Assembly (NCBI RefSeq): GCF_000787775.1
Contig: NZ_BBPM01000029.1
Span: 4,304-68,303 of the forward strand
Reading direction: 5' to 3'
Source of the DNA: Streptacidiphilus carbonis
Lineage (GTDB): Bacteria; Actinomycetota; Actinomycetes; Streptomycetales; Streptomycetaceae
Length of the DNA stretch: 64,000 bases
In this document: piece after piece, positions 2,750 through 55,164 of the stretch
How the letters are laid out: each line of letters starts with the position of its first letter
Position numbering within the stretch: position 1 is the stretch's first letter
The notes under the pieces: generated by a model
What the model saw: only the letters and a program-made list of their open reading frames with translations
What the model was told of the DNA's origin: nothing
The model's database searches: none
Position numbers and translations under genes: made by a program

Positions 2750-3829
2750 TCAGAAGATCACCAAGGAGCGCCCGCCGCGTCCCGCGGACATGCGGGCGAA
2801 GGCCTCGGGGATCTCGTCGAGGGTGATCCGGTCGGTGATCAGGGCGTCCAGGTCGAGCCGTCCGGCGCGGACGTGCTCGGCGAGGACCGGGATGTCCTTG
2901 ACCGGGTCGCTGTTGCCGTAGACGCAGGCGGTGAGGGTGCGGGCGAAGTGGAAGACCTCCAGGGCCGAGAAGGAGACCATGTCGTCCTTGCCGCCGATGC
3001 CGACCACCGTCGTGCGCCCGCCCTTGCGGGTGGAGGACCAGGCCGCGCGGATGGTCGTGCTGCGGCCCACGCACTCGAAGGCGTGGTCCGCGCCGTTGCC
3101 CCCGGTGAGCCTGCGGACGGCCTTGGGCGTCTGCTCGTCGGCGAGCAGGAACTCGGTGGCGCCGTGCCGCCGGGCCAGCTCCTCCTTCTCGGGGGTGACG
3201 TCCACCGCGATGATCGGGGACGCGCCCGCGATCCTGGCCGCCTGCAGGACGGCCAGGCCGACCCCGCCCAGGCCGAAGACGACCACGGACTCGCCGGCCC
3301 GCACCCGGGCCGAGTTGTGGACCGCGCCGTAGCCGGTGAGCACGGCGCAGCCGAGCAGTGCCGCCGAGGCCAGCGGGACGCCCTCGGGCAGCGGGATGAT
3401 CGCGTTCTCGTTGACGATCGTCTCCTCGGCGAAGGCGGCGACGCCCAGGCCGGGGTAGAGGCCGGTGCCGTCCGGCAGCGCGGCGTAGGTCTCCACCGAG
3501 GCGGCGTACTGGTTCTCGCAGAGCCAGGGCTCGCCGATCGCGCAGAGGTGGCAGTGGCCGCAGGCAGGGGCCCAGTTGAGGACGACCGGGTCGCCGGGGC
3601 GGACCGAGGCCACGCCCTCGCCGACGGAGACCACGGTGCCCGCGCCCTCGTGGCCGAGGACCACCGGGGTCTTGGCCCGGAGCACGCCGTTGGCCAGCGA
3701 GAGGTCGGAGTGGCAGACGCCGGCGGCGGCCAGCTTGACCCGGACCTTGCCGGGGCCGGGCTCGGGAAGGGCGATCCCGATGATGTCGAGCGGGGCTCCC
3801 ACGGAGGAGAGCAGGGCGGCGCGGACCAT
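2750..3829 (-). CDS. Zinc-dependent alcohol dehydrogenase (MDR family)
   Basis: This predicted NAD(P)-dependent, zinc-containing medium-chain dehydrogenase has 359 residues. The catalytic-zinc region is GVCHSDLS (near residue 38) with GHEGAGTV. The structural zinc is bound by CGHCHLCAIGEPWLC (near 90-104). The Rossmann motif is GLGGVGLAVLQAARIAGA (near 185). The sequence is closest in style to the class III / aryl-alcohol group, but the substrate cannot be read from it. The gene lies 50 bases downstream of the aldehyde dehydrogenase gene on the same strand. The two probably act in sequence, alcohol to aldehyde to acid, under the shared promoter near 5.35 kb. Confidence 0.9.
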   Translation of the reverse strand: MVRAALLSSVGAPLDIIGIALPEPGPGKVRVKLAAAGVCHSDLSLANGVLRAKTPVVLGHEGAGTVVSVGEGVASVRPGDPVVLNWAPACGHCHLCAIGEPWLCENQYAASVETYAALPDGTGLYPGLGVAAFAEETIVNENAIIPLPEGVPLASAALLGCAVLTGYGAVHNSARVRAGESVVVFGLGGVGLAVLQAARIAGASPIIAVDVTPEKEELARRHGATEFLLADEQTPKAVRRLTGGNGADHAFECVGRSTTIRAAWSSTRKGGRTTVVGIGGKDDMVSFSALEVFHFARTLTACVYGNSDPVKDIPVLAEHVRAGRLDLDALITDRITLDEIPEAFARMSAGRGGRSLVIF

Positions 3830-3879: not shown

Positions 3880-5298
<1,419 letters not shown>

Positions 5299-5328: not shown

Positions 5329-5373
5329 TTAACTAGCAATGCTAATTAATCGCTGCGGGCGGCTCCGACGCAA
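5329..5373 (-). promoter_or_regulatory. ALDH-ADH promoter with near-perfect palindromic operator
   Basis: The AT-rich block at 5329-5349 is a 21-base palindrome: TTAAC-TAGCA (5329-5338), a central base, then TGCTA-ATTAA (5340-5349), with one mismatched pair between the arms. Read on the minus strand, TTGCGT (5368-5373) is followed at 18-19 bases by TTAATT/TAATTA, a plausible -35/-10 pair, so the palindrome covers the -10 region. Its size and symmetry suit a TetR-family dimer; which regulator binds is not shown. It stands out in a genome this GC-rich. Confidence 0.6.
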
Positions 5374-5432
5374 GTGCCGAGGCGCGTGCCGCCCGTCACC
5401 GTCGGCACGCGCCGTCAGGACGGTCGGGACAG

Positions 5433-7469
5433 TCATGACGGGAAGGGCGCCTCCCGCTGCCGTAGCTCCTCCGCTCTGGCCCCGGCCAGCTCCATTCGCA
5501 CGGTGCAGCCGGTCGCCGACGCCCTGACCTCCACGCTCTCGCAGATCTGCCGGGCCAGCCAGAGCCCCTCGCCGGGCCGGGGGCCGTCCGGGCGGGGGAG
5601 GCGGTAGCCGAGGGTGGGATCGTCCAGGACGCTGTCGGCGGGGCGCGGGCCGGGCTGGGTCAGCTCCACGGAGACGGTCCGTGCGCCGGACCAGATCGCG
5701 ACGGTCGCCGTGGAGCCGGAGGGCTCCGGGGCCTCCGGGGTTCCTGGGGCTTCCCCCGGAGTCTCCCGGGCCTCCGGGGATTCCGGAACGTCCGGGATCC
5801 CCGCCTCCGCATCTGCCTCCGCCTCCGCGGCGGCGTGGCCCAGCAGTCGGGCGACCTCCGCCACAGCCAGCACCAGCAGTTCGGCGCGCTCCCGCTCCAG
5901 GCCCAGCTTCATCGCGTGGTCGGCGACGAAGCCGCGCAGCCGGGCGCTGCCGGAGGCAGGCGAGCTCCAGCACAGCCGGGCGGCGCGGGTGGGCGGCGGG
6001 TCCAGCGGTGCGGCGGCCGGGCTCTGGGCGCGGAAGTGGACCGGCTCCAGGTAGTCGTCGGAGGCCGAGATCCTGGTGCCGTCGATCCGCTGCGGGTGGG
6101 TGCGCAGTGCGTCGGCCAGTACGTCGGGGCCGGCGATCCGGGAGTCGTAGGGGCAGATCATCCAGATGTCGGTGTCCGTCAGCAGCGCGTTGAGCTGGGA
6201 CTCCATCTGCTTCCACGCTGCGGCCTCGGCCCGGGAGCGGCCGGCCCACACCGGTTCGGCGATGATCCGGACGTGACGGCGCCGCGCAGCGCCGTTCGCA
6301 CGGCTGGTGCCGCCGCCGTCGGGGGCGCTGCTGTGGCGCCAGTAGCGCTCGAACGCGGCCACGCGCTGGGGCGGGCGTCGGCCGAAGTACGCCGTCTCGG
6401 CGAAGTCGAGGCGGTCGGCCTGCTCGCCCAGGGCCTCGGTCAGCAGCTCCAGATTGGCGGAGGTGGTGGCGGCCAGCACCGGTTCGCCGAGTCGGAAGCC
6501 CTCCTCGACGAAGGGCAGCGCCATCGCCAGGAACTCCTCGTCGGAGCCGTAGACACAGACCTGGTGCCGGAAGTCCGGGGCGGTGGAGCGGAAGCTGTCC
6601 AGGGTGTCCCAGCCGGCCATCCTGATGACCCGTCGGACGTGGGCGGCCGGACGTTCCAGGTGCAGTGAGCGGCCGTCGCTGAGGTCCTGCCTGGTGGCCA
6701 TCAGCAGCCGCAGGCCCTCCAGGTCGATGAAGTCCAGACCTGACATGTCGACATGGAGATCCTGATCGGTCTCGGCTCCGTCAGCCAGGGCCGCCTTCAG
6801 CGCCTGGGCCAGCGGGGAGTGGCCGGTGTCGCCGACCGCACCGCTCAGCCCCAGCCCCGGAGTCGCCCCGTGGCGGCGCAGGATGACCAGTTCGCCGTCC
6901 TCGAACTGCGCGTTCTCGGCGGCCCTGCCGTTGTGGGCCGCGTCCACCTCCGCCATGTCCGCGGCGGCGAAGGCGCGGTGGTCGTACTGACAGAGCGCCA
7001 GCACCTTGCCGCCGACGGCCAGCGGGGAGACCGCCTGCTCGTAGGCGACGATCTGGGCCATGGTGATCCCGTGCCGGGGCACCCAGCCGGTCTCGCCGGT
7101 GACCCGGAGCAGCCGGTAGCCCTCGACGCCGCTCTGCTCGATCAGCGCGTCCATCATGGCGACGGTGCGGTCGATGTCGAAGTAGCCGTCGATCATGTAG
7201 ACCAGGTCGGCCGGGATGATCATCAGCTGACCGGTGGCGGTCAACCCGTCCACGTCGATGCCGGCGCCGGAGAGCGTCTCCCGCACCCGCGCCAGGGCGG
7301 GGCCGTCGTCCTCGGCGATGTAGATGACCTTGTCGTGCCACTGCACCCCGTCGCGGACGAACGCCGCGGTGACCGCGGCGCGTTCGCGTTCGTCGCCGAA
7401 GACGAAGCAGAGGTGGTCGTTGGGCCGCACCGCGCCGACGGGCACGGGCGGCTGCTGGACGGTGGCCAT
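5433..7469 (-). CDS. MEDS-STAS-MEDS-HATPase multidomain sensor/anti-sigma-like protein
   Basis: This 678-residue cytoplasmic protein has four modules. A MEDS (DcmR-like sensory) domain spans about 10-175 (PNDHLCFVFGDERE). A STAS domain spans about 205-290, with MSGLDFIDLEGLRLL and no serine at the usual phosphorylation point. A second MEDS-like domain spans about 305-470 (VCVYGSDEEFLAMALPF). The C-terminal HATPase_c/RsbW-like domain (500-675) contains a Pro/Glu-rich insert. The ATPase motifs are degraded: the N-box reads AVAEVARLLGHAA instead of the usual NE-A-NA pattern, while GLWLARQIC, the late G-box, remains. It is therefore probably a regulatory partner-switching scaffold rather than an active kinase. 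The start at 7469 follows AGGAGG. It is divergent from a TetR gene. Confidence 0.8.
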   Translation of the reverse strand: MATVQQPPVPVGAVRPNDHLCFVFGDERERAAVTAAFVRDGVQWHDKVIYIAEDDGPALARVRETLSGAGIDVDGLTATGQLMIIPADLVYMIDGYFDIDRTVAMMDALIEQSGVEGYRLLRVTGETGWVPRHGITMAQIVAYEQAVSPLAVGGKVLALCQYDHRAFAAADMAEVDAAHNGRAAENAQFEDGELVILRRHGATPGLGLSGAVGDTGHSPLAQALKAALADGAETDQDLHVDMSGLDFIDLEGLRLLMATRQDLSDGRSLHLERPAAHVRRVIRMAGWDTLDSFRSTAPDFRHQVCVYGSDEEFLAMALPFVEEGFRLGEPVLAATTSANLELLTEALGEQADRLDFAETAYFGRRPPQRVAAFERYWRHSSAPDGGGTSRANGAARRRHVRIIAEPVWAGRSRAEAAAWKQMESQLNALLTDTDIWMICPYDSRIAGPDVLADALRTHPQRIDGTRISASDDYLEPVHFRAQSPAAAPLDPPPTRAARLCWSSPASGSARLRGFVADHAMKLGLERERAELLVLAVAEVARLLGHAAAEAEADAEAGIPDVPESPEARETPGEAPGTPEAPEPSGSTATVAIWSGARTVSVELTQPGPRPADSVLDDPTLGYRLPRPDGPRPGEGLWLARQICESVEVRASATGCTVRMELAGARAEELRQREAPFPS

Positions 7470-7521
7470 CAGGCCTCCTCCTGCCGGCGGCATCCGAATG
7501 CCGCGGATGGCCCAAATCTAG

Positions 7522-7590
7522 GGCGGACCGGTAGATCAGGTCAGCAGCTTGGCCGAATTCGATGGCTGCTCCGGGCGAATCCGGTCCGCC
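7522..7590. promoter_or_regulatory. Nested dyad symmetry in the MEDS/TetR divergent promoter region
   Basis: Three inverted repeats share nearly one centre. The outer arms are GGCGGACCGG (7522-7531) and CCGGTCCGCC (7581-7590). The middle arms are AGCAGC (7543-7548) and GCTGCT (7565-7570). The central palindrome is CGAATTCG (7554-7561). Another inverted repeat, GCGGCAT/ATGCCGC, lies at 7487-7504, close to the MEDS gene start. Their position between divergent genes suggests control of both promoters, possibly by the adjacent TetR protein; that link is inference. Confidence 0.5.
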
Positions 7591-7599
7591 GCGAACCCA

Positions 7600-7605
7600 T
7601 AGACT
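7600..7605 (+). promoter_or_regulatory. Candidate -10 element of a leaderless TetR transcript
   Basis: TAGACT ends 6 bases before the ATG at 7612, so a transcript would start at or next to the start codon. No ribosome-binding site precedes that ATG. Leaderless mRNAs are common in actinobacteria. No good -35 hexamer is visible. Confidence 0.4.
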
Positions 7606-7611
7606 CACCCA

Positions 7612-8322
7612 ATGCGATCGGATGCACACCCCGCTGCCAAGAGTGCCACCGGCGCGCCCGCGGACGTGCCCGCGCCCAAGGCCAAGCGGGTGCCGCGGGC
7701 CCAGCGCGAGCAGCAGATGCTGGACGCCGCCGTGCGGGTGTTCTCGCGCTCCGGCTACCACGCGGCCTCGATGGACGAGATCGCCGAGGAATGCCAGGTC
7801 TCCAAGCCGATGCTCTACCTCTACCTGGGGTCCAAGGAGGAGCTCTTCGCCGCGTGTATCCGGCGCGAGGCGGACCGGCTGATCGAGGCCGTCGGCCAGG
7901 CGGCCGAACCGGGTCTGGAGGCGGGGGAGCAGCTGCGGCGCGGGCTCACCGCGTTCTTCGCCTTCGTCGCCGAGCACCGTGAGAGCTGGATCGTGCTCTA
8001 CCAGCAGGCCAGGGCGCAGGGCGAGCCGGTGGTGGAGGAGGTCGCCGCGTGCCGCCGCCAGGTCACCGCAGCGGTCACCGCGCTGGTCCGCAGGGCGGCG
8101 CTGGACTCCGTCCCCGCGCCGCGCGCGGGCGAGCGCCCGGACCGCGGCGAGGCCGCCGCCGTCGCCCAGGCCATCGTCGGCGCCGCCGACGCCCTGGCCG
8201 GCTGGGTCCTGGACACCGGGCCGGAGCCGCCGGAGGAGACCGCCCGCCGGCTGATGTCGGTGATCTGGATCGGCCTGGAACCCCGCCTGCACGGTGCCCG
8301 CTACCGCTCCTCGGGGGAGTGA
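7612..8322 (+). CDS. TetR/AcrR family transcriptional regulator
   Basis: This is a 236-residue DNA-binding repressor of TetR type. An Ala/Pro-rich extension of about 30 residues precedes the helix-turn-helix domain at 35-82, with QQMLDAAVRVFSRSGYHAASMDEIAEE and VSKPMLYLYLGSKEELF. The C-terminal ligand-binding domain is helical. The gene is divergent from the MEDS-STAS-HATPase gene, and the nested dyad between them is its most likely operator. The start lacks a ribosome-binding site and may be leaderless. A role in controlling the MEDS gene or the PYROXD2-like gene is possible; the ligand is unknown. Confidence 0.9.
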   Translation: MRSDAHPAAKSATGAPADVPAPKAKRVPRAQREQQMLDAAVRVFSRSGYHAASMDEIAEECQVSKPMLYLYLGSKEELFAACIRREADRLIEAVGQAAEPGLEAGEQLRRGLTAFFAFVAEHRESWIVLYQQARAQGEPVVEEVAACRRQVTAAVTALVRRAALDSVPAPRAGERPDRGEAAAVAQAIVGAADALAGWVLDTGPEPPEETARRLMSVIWIGLEPRLHGARYRSSGE

Positions 8323-11832: not shown

Positions 11833-11956
11833 GCGGACCGTGCCTGGTTGGCCGCGCAGTTCCCCGCGCCCCTATGGGGCTGCAACTGACCCGCTGAGGG
11901 CGAGTTGCACCCCTCGGGGGCGCGGGGAACTGCGCGACCAGCCAGGCACGGTCCGC
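11833..11956. repeat. Composite inverted repeat, copy C
   Basis: Arms of 40 bases at 11833-11872 and 11917-11956 pair with only two mismatches and contain the core GCAGTTCCCCGCGCCCC. The inner stem TGCAACT (11881-11887) / AGTTGCA (11903-11909) is intact. This is the longest copy; it begins 2 bases after the prim-pol stop and ends 26 bases before the opposing map stop. Its place between convergent genes matches copies A and E. Confidence 0.85.
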
Positions 11957-20912: not shown

Positions 20913-20992
20913 CCCCGCGGCCCCTGGGGTGCTGCAACTGAGCTTCTGACAGCACGTCGCACCTGCATCAGGGGCGCGGGGAACCGCGCGAC
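20913..20992. repeat. Degenerate copy D of the composite repeat in a 302-base gap
   Basis: The outer arms CCCCGCGGCCCCTG (20913-20926) and CAGGGGCGCGGGG (20969-20981) pair with one indel. TGCAACT (20933-20939) survives, but its partner has decayed to GTCGCAC. Next to it, GGGGC-aga-GCCCC (20904-20916) forms a small hairpin. This occupies the panB-proximal half of the 20733-21034 gap. The rest holds the M50 gene promoter region and a GACAC-ctga-GTGTC dyad at 20798-20811, with no further feature seen. Confidence 0.55.
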
Positions 20993-55073: not shown

Positions 55074-55164
55074 GGTCGCGCAGTTCCCCGCGCCCCTATG
55101 TGGGTGCAACTGAATCGCTGTGGGCAAGTTGCATCTACCTAGGGGCGCGGGGAACTGCGCGACC
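55074..55164. repeat. Composite inverted repeat, copy E
   Basis: Perfect 25-bp arms at 55074-55098 and 55140-55164 contain the core GCAGTTCCCCGCGCCCC. The inner stem TGCAACT (55105-55111) / AGTTGCA (55127-55133) is intact. As in copies A and C, it lies between convergent genes (P450 and MBL hydrolase). The flank TGTGCCTGGCCGG also resembles copy C. Confidence 0.85.

Follow-up and report, generated by a model that had tools for sequence, protein, structure and literature searches.

Actinomycetes encode dozens of RsbW-like and STAS-domain proteins, the signals and targets of which are mostly obscure. In Streptomyces coelicolor, 45 homologues of RsbW and 17 of RsbV are reported (PMC8346170). The protein described here is encoded in a 64,000-nucleotide stretch (contig NZ_BBPM01000029.1, positions 4,304 to 68,303; the whole stretch is called the window) of the Streptacidiphilus carbonis genome, which amounts to 8.46 Mb in 139 contigs. 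It joins a MEDS domain, a STAS domain, a second MEDS domain and an RsbW-like HATPase domain in one polypeptide. With the RsbW/RsbV and SpoIIAB/SpoIIAA couples the fusion protein shares the RsbW/SpoIIAB fold and the STAS domain, but it lacks their ATP-site residues and the serine at its usual place, is fused, and carries MEDS sensors.

The closest described systems resemble the fusion in part. Rv1364c of Mycobacterium tuberculosis also holds an RsbW-like domain, a STAS domain and a sensor on one polypeptide (PMC12143880; PDB 3ke6). It differs in having a phosphatase, PAS instead of MEDS and another order (PAS-phosphatase-anti-sigma-anti-anti-sigma), and the likeness is one of domains. The original prediction for this locus stated that partner switching normally uses separate proteins; to find STAS and RsbW-like domains together on a single chain is indeed unusual, but Rv1364c, as described in PMC12143880, is a precedent. 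RsbW3 of Mycobacterium smegmatis is a precedent for part of the mechanism proposed below, as it acts by binding a second RsbW and not a sigma factor (PMC7693655), and differs in that no STAS or MEDS part is described for it. The second half of the fusion belongs with the NF041045 RsbA family (MEDS-HATPase), of which the unfused members examined mostly keep the Asn and Asp of the ATP site and have no fused MEDS-STAS part. Most similar of all are unfused MEDS-STAS/MEDS-HATPase pairs, found at loci L127 and L131 and in genomes G013, G205, G109, G192 and G233, with the same domains, the same order and a STAS domain without Ser. They differ from the fusion in being two overlapping or adjacent genes, in their neighbourhoods, and in having no insert after the N-box.

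The fusion protein is real, conserved and unusual, and is a variant form of partner switching, not a new kind of system. It is somewhat likely to act as a ligand-gated, phosphorylation-free partner-binding switch.

Domain architecture and structure models

The two MEDS domains foreseen in the original prediction were both found by Pfam (PF14417), with 220.8 bits in all and 125.4 and 103.8 bits singly, against a cut-off of 29.8. The fusion protein also matched STAS_2 (40.4 bits, cut-off 29.2), STAS (26.4, cut-off 22.6) and HATPase_c_2 (33.2, cut-off 27.4), and, through its second half, NCBIfam NF041045, the RsbA anti-sigma family (266.6, cut-off 210). A MEDS search of the window's own genome gave two matches, both within the fusion gene. 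No SpoIIE or PP2C phosphatase was matched in the fusion protein, where four Pfam families were found at E values up to 10.

Two structure models were made, one from an alignment deep in the C-terminal half and the other from one deep in the N-terminal half, the reason being that MAFFT placed MEDS-STAS and STAS-only rows on MEDS2. The modelled HATPase domain (residues ~493-664) superposes on RsbW 6m37 with Z 15.8 and a root-mean-square deviation (rmsd) of 1.9 over 115 residues, and on SpoIIAB 1th8 with Z 15.2 and rmsd 3.0 over 130 (VIA-align). Ten-residue means of the predicted local distance difference test (pLDDT) in this domain are 71-96 outside the insert and 54-79 inside it. A profile of the HATPase domains searched against the PDB recovered RsbW 6m36 (E 1.3e-7), SpoIIAB 1th8 (1.5e-4) and Rv1364c 3ke6 (0.0015).

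The MEDS domain was reportedly named by Anantharaman and Aravind in 2005. In that work, as cited in PMC11507031, a role for MEDS in SigB control in actinobacteria was proposed. The presumed signals of MEDS domains are simple hydrocarbon derivatives (PMC11507031), or more broadly simple organic molecules (PMC11507031, PMC8784404). A search for MEDS together with anti-sigma factors and Streptomyces found no literature, although it covered few subscription papers and so is no proof of absence.

The KaiC-like fold of these domains was compared on a single domain, MEDS1, the model of which superposes on FlaH with Z 14.1 and rmsd 3.9 over 174 residues and on the CI domain of KaiC with Z 12.2 and rmsd 3.3 over 170 (VIA-align). 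For the MEDS part, Foldseek placed KaiC at the top (E 4.9e-8) with template-modelling (TM) scores of only 0.21 and 0.28, which are low because two domains are matched at once; the second model gave a like result. A sequence-only profile search for the KaiC-like fold reached just E 0.36-0.5. All the residues invariant over 22 aligned MEDS domains (His, Gly, Leu, Arg, Glu, Cys, Tyr-Asp and His) are present in MEDS1, and their counterparts in MEDS2 include His302, Glu423, Cys439, Tyr441, Asp442 and His458. No Walker A motif (GxxxxGK[ST]) occurs anywhere in the fusion protein. Since the ATP site of the HATPase domain is lost as well, no domain of the fusion looks able to hydrolyse nucleotide.

Loss of the ATP site and of the phosphorylatable serine

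In HATPases of this fold the N-box Asn binds Mg and the G1 Asp binds adenine (PMC9137472). In the original prediction the Asn had been reported missing and the Asp not evident, and alignment to unfused MEDS-HATPases now confirms that both are gone. In place of the N-box Asn, present in 73/75 of the unfused proteins, the fusion has Leu if read without gaps and Arg if aligned with MAFFT; no shift of the alignment can restore the Asn, because the fusion protein has none beyond residue 500. At the G1 Asp, which 71 of the 75 retain, the fusion has Gln605. In the PDB alignments these columns are the N-box and G1 of RsbW and SpoIIAB. The N-box of the fusions and the G1 of L127 were read by eye, since in the profile the Asn column of the fusions was filled by an acidic residue (Glu or Asp) from the insert and the L127 G1 was shifted. 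The insert is shorter in the other fusions and absent from the aligned unfused relatives. According to the models, the RsbW fold is retained and the ATP site is not.

It is very unlikely that a rearranged site lets the HATPase domain go on binding ATP or phosphorylating a partner. The retained N-box Glu and the GEGLWL of G2 speak for it. Against it, the protein has no Asn after residue 500 and carries Gln for the G1 Asp, its own STAS domain is without Ser at the position where one is usual, and the corresponding mutations in SspH, another Streptomyces HATPase, N54A and D84A, are reported to cause loss of function (PMC9137472).

The STAS domain has lost its part of the phosphorylation chemistry too. 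The phosphorylated Ser of SpoIIAA, RsbV and BldG lies directly after an Asp, and its equivalent here is Leu250, which is Leu in 4/4 fusions. A phosphomimetic Glu251 at this position had been considered and was dropped, because the Ser directly follows the Asp, which points to Leu250. The absence of an obvious phosphorylatable Ser had been noticed in the original prediction. The loss is real and yet not peculiar to this protein, being a trait of the operon family as sampled here, in which one of 60 linked STAS domains carries Ser or Thr.

With the residues for Mg and adenine and the phosphorylatable STAS residue all lost, the usual cycle of kinase and phosphatase should not run within the fusion, and the protein is predicted to have no kinase activity. 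What the original prediction described is accurate, and its pseudo-kinase idea holds at the level of sequence and model.

Extent of the losses and origin of the fusion

The spread of these losses was followed in 60 loci picked by hand among the matches listed when 197 genomes of the order were searched (25 of the length usual for a MEDS-STAS gene, the other 35 taken from the head of the list), together with loci from earlier searches, duplicates removed. The counts are not rates for all genomes, because the loci were hand-picked. Where the STAS domain is encoded immediately 5' of such a HATPase, Ser or Thr stands at the phospho-position in 1/60 (a Thr, at L123), while the other STAS domains of those loci have it in 31/33 (16 Ser, 15 Thr).

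The ATP site is mostly retained. Asn or Asp departs in 9 of the 30 unfused HATPase genes with an upstream MEDS neighbour, in none of 32 with a plain STAS neighbour and in none of 22 for which no STAS neighbour was found (0/54 together), and such departures occur in all four fusions. L130, which departs only at the N-box Glu, was left out of the nine. L132 has no normal G2 motif and the G2 of L165 is abnormal by eye, so these two may be decaying genes; without both, the count is 7/28.

The fusion joins a two-gene operon that is common in streptomycetes and their relatives. Its relatives are usually adjacent genes, MEDS-STAS or plain STAS followed by MEDS-HATPase, co-directional and often overlapping, and their order and orientation match the domain order of the fusion. 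A (MEDS-)STAS gene lies directly upstream of 53 of 75 unfused MEDS-HATPase genes (21 with MEDS, 32 with STAS alone). In a tree of the C-terminal half with 79 rows, the four fusions and the unfused L127 and L131 form one clade (100/100, with a long-branch warning), and next to it stand five more MEDS-STAS-linked pairs and one STAS-linked pair. A tree of MEDS2 alone recovers the same clade (100/99), so the ATP-site departures do not create the grouping; a tree of the N-terminal half leaves the position of the fusions unresolved. The C-terminal half of the fusion is 46% identical to L127 and 45% to L131, most clearly in MEDS2. These two pairs, from two genomes of the same family, are the closest relatives, and they belong to the fusion's clade and resemble it further in departing at both N-box and G1. 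Since the nearest unfused pairs already depart, the departure most likely preceded the fusion, and the likely order of events is that the STAS Ser was lost, then the ATP site altered, and then the genes fused.

The fusion was met only in this genus, in a survey covering 61 genomes, 14 genomes of the genus, the matches listed from the 197 genomes, and plasmids. Among plasmids, 28 records had a match and none covered 80% of the fusion protein.

Conservation and distribution

Three other genomes carry the same frame unbroken, with identities of 90, 90 and 69%, so the gene is neither an assembly artefact nor a product of chance. Ratios of nonsynonymous to synonymous substitution (dN/dS; Nei-Gojobori, six genome pairs among the four fusions) are 0.13-0.43 for MEDS1, 0.18-0.45 for STAS, 0.20-0.33 for MEDS2 and 0.21-0.43 for the HATPase region, and all four domains look to be under purifying selection. 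The motifs that replace the N-box and G1, RLL.HA and EL.QPG, are conserved in 4/4 fusions.

In a tree of the TetR, aldehyde dehydrogenase and PrfC proteins encoded around the fusion, G012 stands apart from the other three fusion genomes (forks at 100/98 and 100/100) and G002, which has a remnant of the gene, lies outside both (84/83); the tree is midpoint-rooted and some of its rows are incomplete. The simplest history is a single old insertion that was later lost several times. The remnant (L067, ~6845-7640) occupies the equivalent place between the TetR and aldehyde dehydrogenase genes; it has large internal deletions, and its recognisable pieces span less than 0.5 kb.

Several observations weigh against the reading as a phosphorylation-free switch made from a fused operon. 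The gene is complete in four of 14 genus genomes, absent from nine and a remnant in the tenth, and is thus dispensable. The HATPase region is the least conserved part, with 63% identity between the window and G012 against 70-74% in the other regions. The ATP sites of L127 and L131 may still be alive, since L131 has an Asn one residue early and both have an Asp within one or two residues of the G1 column. STAS domains without Ser are also common more widely: of the 23 other STAS matches in the window's own genome, read by eye, only nine carry Ser or Thr (7 Ser, 2 Thr), and 14 have neither there or show no clear motif. The Fisher value for the unfused genes, 3.9e-5, ignores relatedness, the loci behind it were hand-picked and the losses fall in about four or five lineages; the value for MEDS-HATPase genes alone, 0.0012 (5/21 against 0/54), ignores relatedness too. 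As read from the trees, the departing lineages are the fusions with L127 and L131; L038, L110 and L113; L052 with L054; L132; and L165. Finally, the models give no reliable domain placement or STAS-HATPase contact, their predicted TM scores (pTM) being 0.59 and 0.39.

Part of this would suit simple decay, in which the function of the operon was lost, the ATP site eroded and the fusion arose as a by-product; the G002 remnant with its deletions, the nine other genomes without the gene and the weak conservation of the HATPase region all agree with it. Decay is nevertheless quite improbable: the frame has stayed open in four species with the dN/dS of the HATPase region at the values given, both altered motifs are kept in every fusion, and so are a promoter-like spacing and an AGGAGG 5' of the start.

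A proposed switch driven by binding

The preferred reading remains the phosphorylation-free switch. Lacking both an ordinary kinase site and a Ser to phosphorylate, the fusion should switch through binding. A small molecule, perhaps an alcohol, an aldehyde or a related metabolite, would bind to one or both MEDS domains, and this binding would change whether the STAS half sits on its RsbW-like neighbour in the same chain. Docking would open or close the RsbW-like face, so that a partner (a sigma factor, or an RsbW-like or STAS protein) might be held or released. There is some parallel in the stressosome of Bacillus subtilis, where phosphorylation of RsbS is reported to increase signalling and not to be essential (PMC3944199). 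The original prediction had proposed a pseudo-kinase scaffold that could trap or release anti-sigma factors, depending on a signal sensed by the MEDS domains. Its basis is supported, in that the two sensor domains, the STAS domain without its usual phosphorylatable residue and the RsbW-fold domain without its Mg and adenine residues are kept across four species at dN/dS below 0.5. Trapping is one possibility only; a sigma factor, a further STAS protein or a second RsbW might just as well be the partner held by the RsbW-like half.

The last of these partners suggests a different role, that of a dominant-negative dimer partner: the RsbW-like half would pair with an active RsbW-like protein and silence it, with the MEDS and STAS domains setting its availability, and the fusion would then be an antagonist and not an anti-sigma factor. 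RsbW3, an RsbW homologue, binds RsbW1 and not SigF, and its overexpression raises SigF output (PMC7693655). The fold of the fusion is kept without the ATP site, and 39 of the 42 NF041045 matches in its own genome lie outside the fusion gene and are candidate partners. RsbW3 itself, however, is described as an RsbW extended by 30 residues at its N terminus, 194 residues in all (PMC7693655), and so is no MEDS/STAS fusion; such a role is judged unlikely.

The idea of a phosphorylation-free switch can be extended, tentatively and with the balance tipping against it, from the fusion to its relatives. MEDS-linked STAS/HATPase pairs would then form a class of partner switch in which ligand binding takes the place of phosphorylation; Ser would have been lost class-wide, the MEDS domain on the STAS side would have freed the ATP site to erode repeatedly and independently, and in Streptacidiphilus the pair would have become fused. 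Should many MEDS-linked HATPases leave their own STAS partner unphosphorylated, the phosphorylation cycle of the textbooks would not describe them. The linked loss of phosphorylation chemistry in the MEDS-STAS/MEDS-HATPase family is more interesting than the single gene and reaches beyond it. With sensor, antagonist and RsbW-like face in one polypeptide, the question becomes testable on a single purified protein. The locus also offers a natural case of an RsbW-type kinase becoming a pseudokinase while its unfused relative persists in other genomes.

The gene and its neighbourhood

The features of the locus are collected in Table 1. The fusion protein begins MATVQQ at the ATG at 7469; an alternative in-frame ATG at 7493 would give 686 residues, and 7469 is preferred because a ribosome-binding site precedes it. 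By eye, AGGAGG or GGAGGAGG also stands 5' of the starts in G004, G011 and G012. The promoter-like site recurs with identical 18-base spacing in 4/4 fusion genomes (as CTGAAC in G011 and TATGTT in G012), and a pattern search did not find it in G002. Just 3' of the gene lies a 16-bp inverted repeat (5381-5413; 88% complementary, 1-base loop), possibly a terminator without a T run.

Table 1. Positions in the window of the fusion gene, its parts and its neighbours
Feature	Position	Strand	Remark
Fused MEDS-STAS-MEDS-HATPase coding sequence	5433..7469	minus	678 residues (codons); intact orthologues in 3/13 other genus genomes
MEDS domain 1, KaiC-like fold	6933..7418	minus	Pfam PF14417
STAS domain	6606..6848	minus	Pfam STAS_2 and STAS over cut-off
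Leu250 at STAS phospho-position	6720..6722	minus	After Asp249, motif FIDLEGL; Leu in 4/4 fusions
MEDS domain 2	6093..6569	minus	Pfam PF14417
RsbW/SpoIIAB-like HATPase domain, fold kept	5493..5948	minus	Pfam HATPase_c_2; VIA-align
Degenerate N-box AVAEVARLLGHAA	5829..5867	minus	Residues 535-547; Asn lost, Glu (E538) kept
Ala/Glu/Pro-rich insert after N-box, ~45 residues	5706..5840	minus	Alignment
Degenerate G1 motif ELTQPGPR	5643..5666	minus	Residues 602-609; Asp replaced by Gln605
G2 motif GEGLWL, kept	5556..5573	minus	Alignment
Ribosome-binding site GGAGGAGG of ATG 7469	7474..7481	minus	Read directly
Promoter-like CTGACC-N18-TAGATT of fusion gene	7515..7544	minus	Consensus match only
Divergent TetR-family regulator	7612..8322	plus	Orthologue in 14/14 genus genomes; FasR-like, below NCBIfam cut-off
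Palindrome TTAACTAGC-N3-GCTAATTAA 5' of aldehyde dehydrogenase	5329..5349	.	1 match, 0.00 expected
Aldehyde dehydrogenase, downstream neighbour	3880..5298	minus	
Zinc alcohol dehydrogenase	2750..3829	minus	Best match, below cut-off: mycothiol-dependent formaldehyde dehydrogenase

The order TetR, fusion, aldehyde dehydrogenase, alcohol dehydrogenase and prfC is kept in all four fusion genomes, and this company fits the idea that MEDS domains sense simple organic molecules. It also raises the alternative that the fusion is a dedicated regulator of the adjacent dehydrogenase genes, which it adjoins wherever it is complete; MEDS domains as presumed sensors of simple hydrocarbon derivatives (PMC11507031) would be in keeping with that. 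Against this, the TetR gene and the aldehyde dehydrogenase gene with its palindrome are direct neighbours without the fusion in 8/9 non-fusion genomes, the fusion gene has a promoter-like site of its own, and the unfused sister pairs at L127 and L131 both lie near a glutamyl-tRNA synthetase gene, L127 also adjoining an aconitase-family gene. Such a dedicated regulator is highly improbable.

The palindrome, as TTAACTAGC-N3-GCTAGTTAA or an imperfect copy (imperfect in G001, G002, G005, G007 and G010), was seen in 13/13 genus loci inspected by eye, whether or not they carry the fusion, and for that reason the dehydrogenase genes seem not to need the fusion for local control. It is possibly an operator for the TetR regulator at 7612-8322 or for another one. 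No aldehyde dehydrogenase match was found within 1.5 kb of the TetR gene in G008. In G006 (L085) the match to the aldehyde dehydrogenase next to TetR is broken into several pieces in different frames, which suggests frameshifts or sequencing errors.

Two observations concern the neighbours of unfused genes. In G013 (L066, 9606-10856), a gene for a PAS-SpoIIE phosphatase adjoins an unfused MEDS-STAS/MEDS-HATPase pair with a Ser-less STAS domain. Of the 54 unfused MEDS-HATPase loci that have no MEDS gene upstream, 18 encode an ANTAR domain nearby (L134, L136-L140, L142, L143, L145, L147-L149, L152, L153, L155, L157, L160 and L166), and the output of the family therefore need not be a sigma factor. 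These loci are exactly the 18 rows of one clade in the tree of the C-terminal half. Both of the ANTAR genes that were scanned encode STAS-ANTAR proteins. Thr stands at the STAS phospho-position in 14/14 of the loci read (of 18), and the HATPase kinase of such loci may act on that RNA-binding regulator.

A repeated element, GCAGTTCCCCGCGCCCCT, occurs in the window in eight copies with up to two mismatches (0.02 expected), three inverted pairs among them about 42 bases apart. Its sites are 852-929, 2708-2725, 11856-11933, 20970-20987 and 55080-55158, and it is also present between the fusion and the dehydrogenase genes in G012.

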